From positions 1 to 64,000 of the forward strand of contig NZ_FUXP01000011.1 of assembly GCF_900167055.1 (NCBI RefSeq): a stretch of 64,000 nt of DNA, written 5' to 3'. The position numbers were made by a program, and so were the translations under genes. This document shows, in pieces, positions 2,534-62,113 of the stretch (position 1 is its first letter; each line of letters starts with the position of its first letter). The notes below the pieces were generated by a model. The model did not search any database. It saw only the letters and a list, made by a program, of their open reading frames with translations, and was not told where the DNA came from. The DNA is from Lysobacter spongiicola DSM 21749 (GTDB lineage: Bacteria > Pseudomonadota > Gammaproteobacteria > Xanthomonadales > Xanthomonadaceae).

Positions 2534-2643
2534 GTGGGAGCGGCTTCAGCCGCGATCGGGACCTGGCGGGCGCGAACAATCATCTGATCGCGGCTGAAGC
2601 CGCTCCTACAGGGGCGATGGGTCGCGACTTACGTCGCTCCTAC
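2534..2643. repeat. REP pair plus single type-B arm, with a preceding GTCCCC hairpin module
   Basis: Two inverted arms (2534-2557 and 2586-2609) of the GTAGGAGCGGC palindrome flank a variable spacer. The first arm has GTGGG in place of GTAGG. A third arm of the GCGAC-stem subtype lies at 2621-2643. Before them, 2507-2533 carries a CCCC/GGGG hairpin joined to CTTCCTTCGGGGC, also found beside the repeats near 7.5 kb and 19.8 kb. The cluster fills the pilD-coaE gap. Confidence 0.85.
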
Positions 2644-2690
2644 AGGTGGTAGGTGCCGCGGGGTTGGCCGGGCGTGGCATCCTGCGCGGC

Positions 2691-3311
2691 ATGAGTGATT
2701 ACATCATTGGCGTGACTGGCGGCGTGGCCTCCGGGAAGAGCGAGGTCACGCGCCGGTTCGAGGCGTTGGGCGTGTTGGTGGCCGACGCCGATATTGCGGC
2801 ACGGCAGGCGGTGGCGCCCGGCTCGGAAGGGCTGGCCGAGCTGGTGCGTGTTTTCGGGGCGGAATCGCTGGATGCCACCGGGGGGCTTGATCGCGCGGCG
2901 ATGAGGCGGCGGGTGTTCGCTGATCCCGCAGCCCGGTCCGCGCTTGAGGCGATCATCCATCCGCGGGTCCGGTCCTTGCTGCGTGCGCAGTGCGAGGCGG
3001 CCAGCGGAGCCTATGCGATCGCGGCGATCCCTCTACTGGCCGAAGGCGGCGGGCGCAGCGCCTATCCGTGGCTGGACCGGATACTGGTGGTGGATGTACC
3101 GGAGGCGGTGCAGCGCGAGCGGTTGATGCGCCGGGATGGCGTGGACCTGGCCCTGGCAGAGTCGATGATCGCGGCACAGGCGACGAGGGCCGAGCGGCTG
3201 GCGGTGGCGGATGACGTGCTGGTCAATGATGGGCCGCTGGAGGCGCTGGATGCGCACGTGGCGGCGTTGGATCGGCGGTGGCGGGTGTTGGCGGAGATGG
3301 CGGTTGGCTGA
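2691..3311 (+). CDS. coaE: Dephospho-CoA kinase
   Basis: 206 residues. It phosphorylates the 3'-hydroxyl of dephospho-CoA, the last step of coenzyme A synthesis, in the cytosol. The P-loop GGVASGKSEV lies at about residues 8-17, followed by the family's DADIAARQAV segment and IHPRVRSLL near residue 90. The start at 2691 (MSDYIIGVTG) is chosen because the family begins directly with the P-loop strand; an upstream in-frame ATG at 2646 would add 15 atypical residues encoded by repeat DNA. Pairing with pilC-pilD is common in gammaproteobacteria, but a repeat cluster separates it from pilD here. Confidence 0.95.
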   Translation: MSDYIIGVTGGVASGKSEVTRRFEALGVLVADADIAARQAVAPGSEGLAELVRVFGAESLDATGGLDRAAMRRRVFADPAARSALEAIIHPRVRSLLRAQCEAASGAYAIAAIPLLAEGGGRSAYPWLDRILVVDVPEAVQRERLMRRDGVDLALAESMIAAQATRAERLAVADDVLVNDGPLEALDAHVAALDRRWRVLAEMAVG

Positions 3312-3328
3312 CGGCTCGTTGAGCTGTT

Positions 3329-3459
3329 GTAGGAGCGACGTGAGTCGCGACCGCCCGAGATCGAGAAGAAGGTGCGGGTCGCGACTTACGTCGCTCCTAC
3401 AGGGGTGGCGGGCTTGCGTCGGGTATGTGGGTTTGGGTCGCGGCTGAAGCCGCTCCTAC
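3329..3459. repeat. Type-B REP pair and one type-A arm
   Basis: Arms at 3329-3348 (loop GTGA) and 3377-3400 (loop GTAA in the arm's own reading direction) form an inverted pair with the GCGAC/GTCGC stem. A single type-A arm ends at 3459. The group occupies the gap between the convergent coaE and the Nudix/ThiE-like gene. No other signal was seen there. Confidence 0.85.
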
Positions 3460-7416: not shown

Positions 7417-7522
7417 GTAGGAGCGGCTTCAGCCGCGATCGGGACTCGGCGCGGGCAGACGATCATCCGATCGCGGCTGAAGCCGCTCCTACGCCCCGAA
7501 GGAAGTCCCCCCGGGGGACAAA
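7417..7522. repeat. REP pair with GTCCCC hairpin module
   Basis: Inverted type-A arms lie at 7417-7440 and 7469-7492. They are followed by GCCCCGAAGGAAGTCCCC and a GGGGGAC complement, the same accessory hairpin as beside the repeats at 2.5 kb and inside murF. It lies between secA and the M23 gene. Confidence 0.88.
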
Positions 7523-26552: not shown

Positions 26553-26930
26553 AGGTGGCGGAGCCGGCCGATAAGCCGGGTTCTGTCGTGGACAGTCATT
26601 CCTCTAGGCGCATCGTCACCGATACGCTCGAGCAACCTACCCGGACCCGACGCGGGCAGCGCCATGAGGTCCCTATTTGGTCTTGCTCCCGGTGGGGTTT
26701 GCCGTGCCGGTCTGTTGCCAGACTCGCGGTGCGCTCTTACCGCACCGTTTCACCCTTGCCACGCATCCCCGGAGGGACCGTTCGGCGGTCTGCTCTCTGT
26801 TGCACTTTCCGTCGGCTCGCGCCGCCCAGGTGTTACCTGGCACCGTGCCCTGTGGAGCCCGGACTTTCCTCGGCACCCGTCACCACCGAAGTGGATCAAG
26901 GTGACGCGACTGCCTGGCCGACTCCGCCAC
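26553..26930 (-). ncRNA. rnpB: RNase P RNA (type A)
   Basis: The minus strand shows the hallmark GAGGAAAGTCCGGGCTCCAC near the 5' end and AGAGGAATGACTGTCCACG followed by ACAGAACCCGGCTTATCGG near the 3' end. The ends pair (GGCGGAGTCGGCC with GGCCGGCTCCGCC) as helix P1. The RNA is the catalytic part of RNase P, which matures tRNA 5' ends. Ends are approximate, placed from P1. TAGAAT at 26935-26940 is a fitting -10 box just upstream, and a pyrimidine-rich CCTTTTCCTTC follows the 3' end. Confidence 0.97.
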
Positions 26931-26940: not shown

Positions 26941-27013
26941 TCCGTTGTGGCCGGCTCCCGGTGGTCCGCTTGCAGGTATCAGCTCTGTTCGCCAAAGCAA
27001 CCTCGTCCAGCAT

Positions 27014-27151
27014 GTAGGAGCGGCTTCAGCCGCGACCGTGGAGTCGGCGCGGACGGTCATGCATCCGATCGCGGCTGAAGCCGCTCCTACAAGTGCTGCC
27101 GCAGCCTCGGCCGACTCGGGGCGGACAGTTCGCGACTCGCGTCGCTCCTAC
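27014..27151. repeat. REP pair and one type-B arm
   Basis: Type-A arms at 27014-27035 and 27067-27090 form an inverted pair. A type-B arm with GCGA loop (in its own reading direction) lies at 27128-27151, just beyond the end of rsmI. Confidence 0.88.
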
Positions 27152-31276: not shown

Positions 31277-31908
31277 GCGATGCGCTCGACCGGCTGCTGG
31301 TGGAGATCCGCGCCTGCCGCGCCTGCGAGGCGTGCCTGCCGCTCGGCCCGCGCCCGGTACTCAGTGCCGGCGCCGACGCCCGACTGATGGTGGTGGGCCA
31401 GGCCCCAGGCAGGAAGGTCCACGAGAGCGGCATCCCCTGGGACGACGCCAGCGGCCGCCGGCTGCGCGAGTGGATGGGCATCGACAGCGACACCTTCTAC
31501 GATCCGCGACGCGTGGCGATCGTGCCGATGGGCTTCTGCTATCCGGGCAGGGCGGCCTCCGGCGATGCGCCTCCGCGTCCCGAGTGCCGGTCGCTCTGGC
31601 ATCCGCGGCTCATGCCGCTGCTGCCCAACATTGGGCTGACCCTTCTGATCGGGCAGTACGCGCAGGCGCACTTCCTGGGCGCACGGCGCAAGCGCAGCCT
31701 GACCGACACCGTGCGCAGCTGGCAGGACTACCTGCCGACCCACCTGCCGCTACCGCACCCCAGTCCGCGCAACGTCGGCTGGTTCAAGGCCAACCCGTGG
31801 TTCGAAGGCGAGGTGCTGCCGACCCTGCGGGGGCGCGTCGCGGCGCTGGTCGCCGACGATGGAGCTCCCGCCGACGTTTGTAGGAGCGGCTTCAGCCGCG
31901 ATCGGTGA
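31273..31908 (+). CDS. Uracil-DNA glycosylase superfamily protein with repeat-encoded C-terminus
   Basis: 211 residues. It shows superfamily motif A as VVGQAPGRKVHESGIPWDDA (about 35-54) and motif B as HPSPRN (about 158-163). CRACEAC near residue 14 recalls the iron-sulfur cysteines of family 4/5 enzymes, but the full set was not identified. A base-excision repair role is inferred. The last ten residues, VCRSGFSRDR, and the stop codon come from a palindromic repeat arm at 31880-31903 and its spacer, so the original stop has been lost or replaced. GTG start at 31273 overlaps the oxidase stop. Confidence 0.82.
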   Translation: MSDALDRLLVEIRACRACEACLPLGPRPVLSAGADARLMVVGQAPGRKVHESGIPWDDASGRRLREWMGIDSDTFYDPRRVAIVPMGFCYPGRAASGDAPPRPECRSLWHPRLMPLLPNIGLTLLIGQYAQAHFLGARRKRSLTDTVRSWQDYLPTHLPLPHPSPRNVGWFKANPWFEGEVLPTLRGRVAALVADDGAPADVCRSGFSRDR

Positions 31909-31954
31909 TCCGTTGGCCTGGGGCGGTTCGGATCGCGGCTGAAGCCGCTCCTAC
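31880..31954. repeat. REP pair overlapping the end of the glycosylase-like gene
   Basis: Inverted type-A arms at 31880-31903 and 31931-31954 lie between the convergent glycosylase-like gene and thiL. The left arm is translated, and the stop codon (31906-31908) sits in the spacer between arms. Confidence 0.92.
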
Positions 31955-31986
31955 AAGGGCTCGCAAGGGCCCGGAGGCGGGCGCGG

Positions 31987-35888: not shown

Positions 35889-35911
35889 AGGCACGGGCAG
35901 GCCCGCACCAA

Positions 35912-36060
35912 CCGTCTTCTTTCATCCGGACTGTGACCGTCGGCTCCGGCATCGGACCGGATCTGCTGACCCTTCGCGGCCTGGGCCACGGAGGCGCTCG
36001 CGGGCTCGTCGCATCGCGACCTACCGCCGGTGGGGAGTTTCGCCCCGCCCTGAAGACGTT
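35912..36060 (-). ncRNA. FMN riboswitch (RFN element)
   Basis: The minus strand carries the RFN core in order: a GGGGCGAAACTCCCCACCGG helix near the 5' end followed by CGGTAGG, then GAGCCCGCGAGCGCC, GGTCAGCAGATCCGGT, GCCGGAGCCGACGGT and CAGTCCGGATGAAAGAAGA. The outer strands CGTCTTC and GAAGACG pair as P1. It precedes ribE, so FMN should lower expression of ribE-ribBX-ribH-nusB-thiL, probably through the terminator at 35867-35888. ribD lies upstream of it. Confidence 0.97.
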
Positions 36061-36090
36061 ACGTATTGTTGCCGCCTGGGCGGCGCGTGG

Positions 36091-36096: not shown

Positions 36097-36198
36097 GCAC
36101 CCGGCCCCTGCGCGCTCCGCCGCAATGGTGGAACGCAGCGTTGGTGGCGCTCCCCTTACCCGCCGGGCTCGGTGCTCCCGGTAAAACCCGGTGCTGTT

Positions 36199-36275
36199 GT
36201 AGGAGCGGCTTCAGCCGCGATCGGATGGTGTTTCGCTAGTAACAACTCCACGATCGCGGCTGAAGCCGCTCCTAC
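36199..36275. repeat. REP pair between ribD and the riboswitch promoter
   Basis: Inverted type-A arms lie at 36199-36222 and 36252-36275. The position 40 bp after the ribD stop suggests a role as mRNA 3' end or attenuator between ribD and the riboswitch unit. Confidence 0.88.
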
Positions 36276-36314
36276 AACGGCGGTGGAACCCTGGCTGCAG
36301 CGTGGCAGCCCGCC

Positions 36315-37949: not shown

Positions 37950-39203
<1,254 letters not shown>

Positions 39204-39331
39204 TGCCGCTCCGGGATAGTAGGTGGGAGAACCGCGAGTTTAGCGCCGCGGCAGGGGTGGGAGCCATGGCGCGGGTCTGGATCTCGGGTGGATCAACAGC
39301 GAAGAGCTGGCGGGAAGTGGTCTCGCGCTGC

Positions 39332-39442
39332 GGGAGGCGGGGTGGCGGGGATGGCTCTTCCGCTCGGTAGGACGTCCTGTCCTACTCGCGGCCGCAGGCC
39401 ATCCATGGCCTGCTCTACGCCATCCCCGCCACCCCGCCTCCC
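39332..39442. repeat. Cruciform-like element 1: 24-bp inverted arms enclosing two hairpins
   Basis: Exactly complementary 24-bp arms (39332-39355 and 39419-39442) enclose two smaller hairpins: 7-bp stem GTAGGAC/GTCCTAC (39367-39385) and 9-bp stem GCAGGCCAT/ATGGCCTGC (39394-39413). The inner part 39362-39420 shares its linkers (GCTCGG, CTCGCGGC, GCTCTACGC) with element 2 at 40370-40428 in opposite orientation. It lies between glyA and the exported-protein gene. Confidence 0.85.
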
Positions 39443-39463
39443 ACGTACCGATTCGTGCCATGT

Positions 39464-39476
39464 TTGGGGGGAGACA
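39464..39476. repeat. Left copy of a 13-bp inverted repeat around the exported-protein gene
   Basis: TTGGGGGGAGACA is the exact complement of TGTCTCCCCCCAA at 40328-40340. Together they bound an 877-bp unit holding one gene. Confidence 0.75.
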
Positions 39477-39530
39477 GCGGGATACGCTGTGGGCGGGCCG
39501 CCCCTGCGCTTAACCGGAGACGTGAAGCCC

Positions 39531-40235
39531 CTACGGCGACACTTCCGCGTGGTTGTCGGCCCAGGAATGGGCCCGGCTCGAGATATCGAAGGTGTTGAGG
39601 GGAGAGCTTCCCGGTTCATCGCGTGGCAGGTGGTACAGGACCTCAAGCTTCGCCGGTGCAACCCAGCGGATACCGACCGGTCCCGATCCGGGCGCGAATC
39701 TGTCGACCTGGTGAAGCACTTCGCCGGTGACGGGGTCCCAGATTGCCACTCGATTGGGTCCATAGCCGGCATCAATGTCGTACGAAACCGTCGCAAAGAC
39801 GCTGCCGTCCGGCGAGAAGAGGGGGCGATTGTCGATCCGGTGCTTGCGACCAGCTCCGGGGTCCAGCAGTAGGACTTCGAAGCCTTCCTGATCGAAGACT
39901 TCAACTACAACGTAATGGCCGCCGACGCGCTCCAGGAATGCGTAAGCCAAGCGGTCGTGCGCGGGAAGGCACGCTTCTCCGATCGAACTGGCCAGGCAGA
40001 ACGCGCGGGCAGTCCGGGAGAGCTCTATTCCGTGTTGGGCAGCTGCCGACGCCTCATGCTGTCGAAGGCAACCCGAAACGCCCGTCCCGGCTTCACAACC
40101 GAGACCTTCGGTCGGATCGGATGACTGGAAGCTCCCGGCATTCATCGCCGCCTGTTCTCGGCCGACGGCGCCAACAACAGAAATACACGCGACCAGAACC
40201 ACCCCGATCAACATCGAACAGAACACTTGCTTCAT
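39531..40235 (-). CDS. Exported protein of unknown function with beta-propeller-like blade
   Basis: 234 residues, family not recognised. Start 40235 (MKQVFCSMLIGVVLVACISV) is fixed by GGAGG 8 bp upstream and a clear signal peptide; it has no good lipobox, so it is probably periplasmic or secreted. Cysteines cluster in the first third (around residues 46, 55, 78, 87). The middle (FSPDGSVFATVSYD, NRVAIWDPVTGEVLHQVD, IRWVAPAKLEVLY) reads like one or two propeller blades of WD40/TolB type. G+C looks lower than in neighbouring genes. It is flanked by an inverted repeat and two hairpin elements, which suggests acquired DNA. Confidence 0.75.
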   Translation of the reverse strand: MKQVFCSMLIGVVLVACISVVGAVGREQAAMNAGSFQSSDPTEGLGCEAGTGVSGCLRQHEASAAAQHGIELSRTARAFCLASSIGEACLPAHDRLAYAFLERVGGHYVVVEVFDQEGFEVLLLDPGAGRKHRIDNRPLFSPDGSVFATVSYDIDAGYGPNRVAIWDPVTGEVLHQVDRFAPGSGPVGIRWVAPAKLEVLYHLPRDEPGSSPLNTFDISSRAHSWADNHAEVSP

Positions 40236-40312
40236 CGAACTGCCTCCATCCGTGGGACGCGTGGGCAAACTGCGACCTCGCGAACATGGCGCCCAGAACG
40301 ACCACGTCTCCC

Positions 40313-40340
40313 CTATTACCTTAAGCCTGTCTCCCCCCAA
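40313..40340 (-). promoter_or_regulatory. Possible promoter of the exported-protein gene using the inverted repeat
   Basis: On the minus strand TTGGGG (40335-40340, inside the right inverted repeat) and TAATAG (40313-40318) are 16 bp apart and about 80 bp before the start codon. The match is moderate. Confidence 0.35.
40328..40340. repeat. Right copy of the 13-bp inverted repeat
   Basis: TGTCTCCCCCCAA, exact complement of 39464-39476. It lies upstream of the exported-protein gene. Confidence 0.75.
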
Positions 40341-40369
40341 TCGCCGAAGCGGCGTCCTGCTTGGGCCAT

Positions 40370-40428
40370 GCGTAGAGCGGACATGGATGTCCGCGGCGGC
40401 GAGTCAGCCATGGATGGCTGACCGAGCC
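40370..40428. repeat. Hairpin element 2 (inverted relative to element 1)
   Basis: It consists of GCGTAGA, hairpin GCGGACAT/ATGTCCGC (40377-40394), linker GGCGGCGA, hairpin GTCAGCCAT/ATGGCTGAC (40403-40422) and CGAGC. Linkers match element 1 while both stems differ in sequence yet stay paired. The region from here to 40646 holds no gene; a GATAAT at 40574-40579 may be the ettA -10 box. Confidence 0.8.
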
Positions 40429-40646
40429 GAGGAGCATCGCCCAGGCAGGGCGCCGCTCCACCCGAAGCCCGCGCTTCCGTGCAGCTTTTGCTTTCCGGCC
40501 GGTCCTTGGACCCCGGCTCTGCCATGGCACATGCCATTCAGCCGCACTGATGGCAGCCGCACCCCATATCCGCGATAATGGGCGGTCCCCATTTCCCCCG
40601 GCCCTGCCCCGTCGCAGGTCGCCGCCGTACGCCTGCGGAGCATCGA

Positions 40647-42308
<1,662 letters not shown>

Positions 42309-61726: not shown

Positions 61727-61867
61727 ACCGCCCTCCCAAGCCGTGAGCGCCCGACTTTAGCAGGTTGATCCGCGGTCATATTCGCCCGCGGTTCAGCCGC
61801 GCGGGCGGCTCTCCCAGCACGACAGGCTCGCCCAGGGTGGCTTTGTCCGGCCGGACTTCCAGCGGTT

Positions 61868-62033
61868 GTAGGAGCGGCTTCAGCCGCGATCCGGCGATGG
61901 GTCGCCCGTCCGGTTTCCGATCGCGGCTGAAGCCGCTCCTACAGGGGCGCTGCATTCCCACCTCGTAGGAGCGACGTGAGTCGCGACCGCGCAACTCCGG
62001 TGCCCGGGGGGTCTCGACTTACGTCGCTCCTAC
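61868..62033. repeat. Type-A REP pair and type-B REP pair upstream of gspE
   Basis: Type-A arms lie at 61868-61891 and 61919-61942. Type-B arms lie at 61975-61997 (loop GTGA) and 62011-62033 (loop GTAA). The 387-bp gap between purL and gspE holds these, a TAAAGT (61753-61758, minus strand) that could be a gspE -10 box, and nothing else recognised. Confidence 0.9.
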
Positions 62034-62113
62034 AACCGCCGGAGCTCCAGTTGGAGCGTAGAGCGGGCCACGGACCGTACCGGACCCGCCGCCCCTCGGC
62101 CCTCGGCCCGGCC

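Follow-up and report, generated by a model that had tools for sequence, protein, structure and literature searches.

What is a single gene of low G+C content doing between two copies of one folded element, set in opposite orientations, in an intergenic region of Lysobacter spongiicola DSM 21749? The original prediction saw here either a non-autonomous mobile unit or a structure-recognised integration site carrying a cargo gene. The locus lies in a window of 64,000 nucleotides (positions 1 to 64,000 of contig NZ_FUXP01000011.1), part of an assembly of 3.10 Mb in 31 contigs, and was compared with related genomes (labelled G, with G000 the own genome and G001-G009 its congeners) and with further element loci (labelled L).

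The locus between glyA and an ettA-like gene

The element, gene, element order is found between glyA (minus strand) and, on the plus strand, an ettA-like gene (Table 1).

Table 1. Features of the cassette and its neighbours (window coordinates)
Feature	Position	Strand	Basis
glyA (serine hydroxymethyltransferase), left neighbour	37950-39203	-	Pfam SHMT, E 8e-176
Left element, 24-bp perfect outer stem enclosing two hairpins	39332-39442	-	Folding; R1 match 39339-39436, 88.2 bits
Left arm of 14-bp inverted repeat, TTGGGGGGAGACAG	39464-39477	+	
Cargo gene for a 234-aa protein, either exported or lipoprotein-like	39531-40235	-	Open reading frame
Right arm of 14-bp inverted repeat, TTGGGGGGAGACAG, one base from the right element's 5' end	40327-40340	-	
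Right element, ~19-bp outer stem enclosing two hairpins	40342-40469	+	RF01731 alignment 40342-40463; R1 96.1 bits; folding
ettA-like ABC-F ATPase gene, right neighbour	40647-42308	+	Pfam ABC_tran, two stretches

The predicted drop in G+C content was confirmed, with 61.8% in the cargo gene compared with 68.8% for the window, and GC3 of 0.69 compared with 0.92 in both neighbours. A longer frame of the gene begins at 40340. Its product is presumably exported or lipoprotein-like, since a signal peptide and an LVAC lipobox were read by eye; an AlphaFold2 model from the single sequence (mean pLDDT 46) was set aside. Neither Pfam, NCBIfam nor the plasmid collection gave a match for the gene, and no transposase was seen among the frames read inside the cassette, as had been predicted. 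It fits host codon use poorly, which alone could also mean that 39531-40235 is no real gene, but one clear relative among 395 genomes of the family (41% identity, E 1.3e-45) argues that it is genuine. No element was detected in the 3.6-kb locus of this relative by the element model R1 (see below). A second match in the 395 genomes is weak (27%, E 4.5e-10), and weaker still are two distant genome matches and one at E 1e-3.

The original prediction had proposed looking for empty sites in relatives. Eight of nine congeners have glyA next to the ettA-like gene, and the cargo gene was found in none of the nine. The intergenic region measures about 188-335 bp in seven congeners and about 880 bp in G007, compared with 1443 bp here; the 1.5 kb examined in G003 (L015) contained no ettA-like gene. 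Two element matches lie in the G007 region, one weak (24.7 bits) and the other weaker still (16.5 bits, E 0.03), and the G009 region holds a GTAG-type REP pair. Upstream of glyA in G007 (L020) there is also a second repeat type, with two neighbouring hairpins that share a core, CAGTCGCTCCACGATATTCGC, and have different stems. The window itself carries REP pairs in inverted couples at 2534-3459, 7417-7492, 27013-27091, 31878-31956, 36193-36281 and 61846-62055, made of GTAGGAGCGGCTTCAGCCGCGATC and GTAGGAGCGACGT variants; the name GTAG-type is taken from the accessible text of PMC3733652, and the assignment is our own.

The inverted repeat inside the elements, first described as 13 bp long, is present and extends to 14 bp. 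Since the window contains three perfect 14-bp inverted repeats no more than 1.2 kb apart (30027/30478, 37451/38633 and 39464/40327), it is not beyond chance by itself. It is unexpected within the 60 nt that adjoin each element on its inner side, where one of 3000 Markov shuffles reached 14 bp and all 38 swapped-locus controls scored lower, and the core GGGGGAGACAG occurs only at the two arms in the whole genome. Unusual inner-flank matches were seen at four of 20 pairs (the window locus, L099, L102 and L081, the last only through an internal REP), and the 14-bp repeat is no regular part of the other pairs. Its proposed role as the terminal repeat of a unit was rejected because such repeats are ordinary window-wide; for the boundary, the tails at the outer ends of the elements are the stronger candidates.

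Structure and distribution of the elements

The left element has perfect outer arms at 39332-39355 and 39419-39442, with minus-strand hairpins at 39394-39413 (loop ATGGAT) and 39367-39385 (loop AGGAC); in the right element the hairpins lie at 40377-40394 and 40403-40422, both with ATGGAT loops, and the outer stem of about 19 bp is nearly perfect. The predicted pair of two-hairpin elements in opposite orientation, one with 24-bp arms, is therefore present, except that both are wrapped in an outer stem and not one alone. The right element ends in an outer tail, CGCTCCACCCGAAGCC, read from the sequence at 40454-40469, which the left element lacks. Both fold stably on either strand (z -6.4 to -11.7; none of 200 shuffles as stable). 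A family model, R1, was built from 19 aligned elements of five genomes, both window elements being in the training set; in this alignment 17 of 27 pairs changed on both sides, and the covariation score of 0.357 (0.133 in shuffles) was reached by none of 500 shuffles. Folding and covariation together place the elements beyond chance.

The motif CA(N)GGA occurs in both loops of all 19 aligned elements, and by a simple positional count 87 of 109 copies carry A(N)GGA at both loop positions where it is expected, 16 at one and six at neither; the loops are thus putative CsrA/RsmA-type sites. At least 12 outer base pairs are formed in 66 of the 76 copies with a placeable core, the other 33 of the 109 having been dropped by the loop pattern before this count. 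Compared over 65 copies, an arm agrees at 84% with the complement of the arm it pairs with and at 63% with that of other copies in the same genome, and random GC-rich words give 50%. The right element (window 40353-40452) and a copy on contig 17 (L150, 2100-2198) have identical cores and different, well-paired outer arms. Such unlike yet paired arms could come from template-switch correction of quasi-palindromes or from selection on structure, and they make the family suitable for testing recognition of structure against recognition of sequence. In a variant of the element, seen in L079, L090, L096, L098, L100, L103 and L116, other GC-rich hairpins replace the second hairpin, and in G003 (L105-L109 and L111) the element core is embedded in a longer shared repeat, of some 300 bp or more.

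An outer stem enclosing two A(N)GGA-loop hairpins is the architecture of TwoAYGGAY (RF01731), a structured RNA on record since 2010 that is not known to have a role. The right element aligns with this model over its full length, but its 32.3 bits (E 0.009) do not reach the gathering score of 43, and neither does the highest score in the genus (37.5 bits; ten genomes); the left element has no TwoAYGGAY match in Rfam and only chance-type microRNA matches. At the gathering threshold the Rfam matches in the window are confined to bacterial RNase P RNA (26556-26925, minus strand) and an FMN riboswitch (35910-36061, minus strand). On shared architecture and the R1 model the elements are best filed as probably TwoAYGGAY-like.

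At E values no higher than 0.05, R1 matched in 19 of the 40 genomes scanned, with 9 copies in the own genome and 0-28 in the nine congeners (G000-G009: 9, 1, 0, 10, 12, 0, 0, 28, 0 and 7). The four congeners with zero copies, at 2.8-2.9 Mb each, speak for the specificity of the model. RAYT transposases (PF01797) have no match in G003, G004, G013 and G017, genomes with 10-22 elements, and do match in G005 and G006, which have none, so RAYT was rejected as the mover because its presence does not follow copy number. No larger unit with an internal transposase was seen: the wide intervals in G013:C23, G003:C1 and G088:C2 hold ordinary-looking genes, and of seven long stretches the reading covered two (all except L159-L163). 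RAYT counts and three wide intervals between elements thus yielded no mover. The right element has no match in the plasmid or phage collections, and a core pattern has no exact match in the viral contigs.

Pairs, spacers and sites in relatives

Rescanning 80 fetched loci and the window with R1 gave 109 copies in 81 sources, 54 of which have a single copy. Neighbouring couples within 1 kb number 28, of which 25 are divergent, two tandem and one convergent. For the main count, loci of G051 and G020, chosen because they showed pairs, and of G017, taken in part, were left out; in the remaining eight genomes (G000, G001, G003, G004, G007, G009, G013 and G018, with 93 of 97 R1 matches fetched) 21 of 23 couples within 1 kb are divergent and two tandem, a binomial probability of 3e-11 against a chance of 1/4, with copies treated as independent, which they are not fully. 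A further genome, G088, has two such couples, both divergent; a third divergent couple there, with elements 2 kb apart, encloses an ordinary-looking gene. Three G020 couples, one of them L156, read as convergent and have weak scores. Partners of a pair are no more alike than other copies, and an origin of the pairs by inverted duplication of one element was rejected for this reason. Some genomes appear to pair elements of different types, an observation that carries no weight because the clusters were made after the fact.

Spacer lengths lie between 35 and 916 bp, and most spacers are unrelated between loci. The check proposed at the outset, whether different cargo lies between recurring inverted pairs, thus came out in favour of the original prediction; stretches common to several loci resemble REPs or parts of the variant element. 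Two G004 spacers carry coding sequence, for an HI1420-type antidote protein (E 5e-42) and for an HNH protein (E 1e-6). A terminator-like site was found by set criteria in none of 25 spacers, with 1.2 expected. A divergent pair between two genes in G088 (L195) has a 101-bp spacer with a terminator-like hairpin, which may be native DNA. Elements mostly adjoin the 3' ends of genes, and at 69 element loci with both neighbours called these are convergent in 27, co-directional in 36 and divergent in six, making the place of the window pair between divergent genes unusual.

The flanking genes of 12 further pair loci were searched in the genus, and at five loci or more they lie side by side in one to eight other genomes, with gap lengths taken from our own gene calling. 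At the L099 site the gaps are 51, 84, 84, 68, 170, 258, 6 and 6 bp in eight genomes (906 bp with the pair), at L079 46, 79, 76 and 95 bp in four (822 bp), and at L100 84, 83, 12, 85, 187 and 78 bp in six (841 bp). One genome each gave 40 bp at L112 (734 bp with the pair, and about 1.0 kb in G004) and 112 bp at L103 (635 bp). Longer gaps at L099 and L100 contain GTAG-type REPs. The other seven loci showed no comparable adjacency among the matches listed; the flanking genes of L116 are about 0.8 kb apart in G005, compared with 1278 bp. At the L099 site a lone element is present in G007. G003 carries one element at the L100 site and, about 250 bp on, the partner's tail alone beside similar spacer ends, from which it follows that some single copies are decayed pairs; the L100 pair probably predates the separation of G003 and G004, and movement there was then not recent. 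Neither of the outcomes named at the outset as counting against the original prediction, conservation of the gene and both flanks at this locus in all relatives or elements that never occur as pairs, was observed.

All 21 exact matches to the tail GGCTYCGGNNNGAGCG in 44 loci lie at the outer ends of elements or remnants, while four of eight one-mismatch matches lie elsewhere. The tail is present at both ends of five G004 pairs and of the G003 pair, barring one end cut by a contig. In G017 a whole pair, its 35-bp spacer included, is present at two separate places (L144 and L148), and copies identical in core and adjoining arms are found at unrelated loci, such as L102 and L098 of G004. Target duplications, also suggested as a check, were not detected: in 24 pairs the longest common word of the outer flanks came to 6.08, compared with 6.13 in swapped controls.

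Interpretation and comparison with known systems

We give a probability of roughly 0.6 to the reading that the stretch of about 1.15 kb (roughly 39320-40469) is a non-autonomous, cargo-carrying mobile unit with TwoAYGGAY-like ends, its mobility being deduced from structure, divergent recurrence, mostly unrelated spacers, short gaps in relatives and the duplicated pair. The ends would be divergent elements with 5' ends inward and tails outward, and the unit would have delivered a single foreign gene of lipoprotein-like type to the space between glyA and ettA. A recombinase acting in trans may recognise the ends by their outer tails or by their fold and move the whole unit into intergenic DNA, after which either element could decay. 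This is argued for by the divergent pairing (21 of 23, and both G088 couples), by mostly unrelated spacers, some with genes, and a cargo gene absent from all nine congeners, by flanking genes joined by only 6-258 bp elsewhere at no fewer than five of 12 pair loci, and by the doubled pair in G017, the identical copies at unrelated loci and the tails outermost in 21 of 21 cases. Of the original proposal, the recurrent inverted pairs and differing cargo are supported, and the inverted-repeat boundary and target duplications are not. Against a mobile unit weigh the lack of a mover in what was read and of a target-duplication signal, the tailless left element, the single-copy loci, the convergent G020 couples, partners no more alike than other copies, the G088 pair whose spacer may be native DNA, the lack of plasmid, phage and viral-contig matches, and the age of the L100 pair.

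The many single-copy loci would also be expected if REP/BIME-like repeats settled singly in intergenic DNA with an orientation preference, the gene having been acquired separately in a tolerant site, and the G088 spacer with its terminator-like hairpin and the position of most elements beside gene 3' ends agree with this. We regard it as rather unlikely because the spacers at the five sites, of 161-535 bp, are longer than the entire native intergenic region (6-258 bp) in most relatives and so are not native DNA, because a whole pair has been duplicated, and because terminator-like sites are absent from the 25 spacers. An RNA-regulatory role, in which the elements would be CsrA/RsmA-binding transcript hairpins or decoy RNAs and the gene arrived separately, draws on the covarying stems, the A(N)GGA loops of 87 copies and the CsrA binding proposed for TwoAYGGAY in the accessible part of PMC4333381. 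The elements are absent from four congeners, the varied neighbour orientations imply that most are not leaders of divergent genes, and no common promoter region was seen across pair spacers, which together make this role improbable. A structure-recognised integration site accepting gene cassettes, like the attC sites of integrons, would account for strongly folded ends, single-gene cargo without a transposase and contents that differ by site; it is very improbable, as the pairs are inverted and not head-to-tail, and no cassette arrays were seen.

If the cargo-carrying unit is real, the TwoAYGGAY family gains a testable genomic role, and single genes have one more route into intergenic DNA, with a mover that awaits discovery. 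A broader proposal, that TwoAYGGAY relatives form the paired ends of an undescribed class of transposase-less cassettes, each with a single foreign gene and moved by a recombinase that reads folded, CsrA-site-bearing ends, is offered tentatively, as one that would sooner prove wrong than right. A limited search of the open-access literature found no description of a cassette arrangement with TwoAYGGAY-like ends.

The elements share with TwoAYGGAY RNA the two A(N)GGA-loop hairpins in an outer stem and a full-length model match, but score below the gathering threshold and are multi-copy, patchy and paired divergently round unrelated DNA, an arrangement that the accessible parts of PMC4333381, PMC2864571 and PMC11701678 do not mention. 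The family is typed as Cis-reg in Rfam, in contrast to its listing in the available text of PMC2864571 as probably RNA and probably not cis-regulatory. Integron cassettes also have single-gene cargo and folded ends resembling recombination sites, but form direct arrays, unlike the inverted pairs here (21 divergent and 2 tandem of 23). REPs are likewise intergenic palindromic repeats and, in the portion of PMC3733652 available, often inverted couples with spacers mostly of 20-100 bp; the GTAG/CGTC REPs and BIMEs differ in that each element here has two same-orientation hairpins and an outer stem, spacers reach 916 bp and hold genes, and element number is not tracked by RAYT genes. MIC231, the Tn3-type MICs of Xanthomonas and MITEs, as described in the accessible text of PMC1196294 and PMC6304161, have passenger DNA between inverted ends and are presumed to be moved in trans. 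Inverted ends, passenger DNA and the lack of an internal transposase are all found here, with the left end tailless, whereas the ends are structured and TwoAYGGAY-like, and neither a parent transposon nor target duplications were found. The closest known kinds are mobile insertion cassettes and REP dimers, with either of which the locus agrees only in part.
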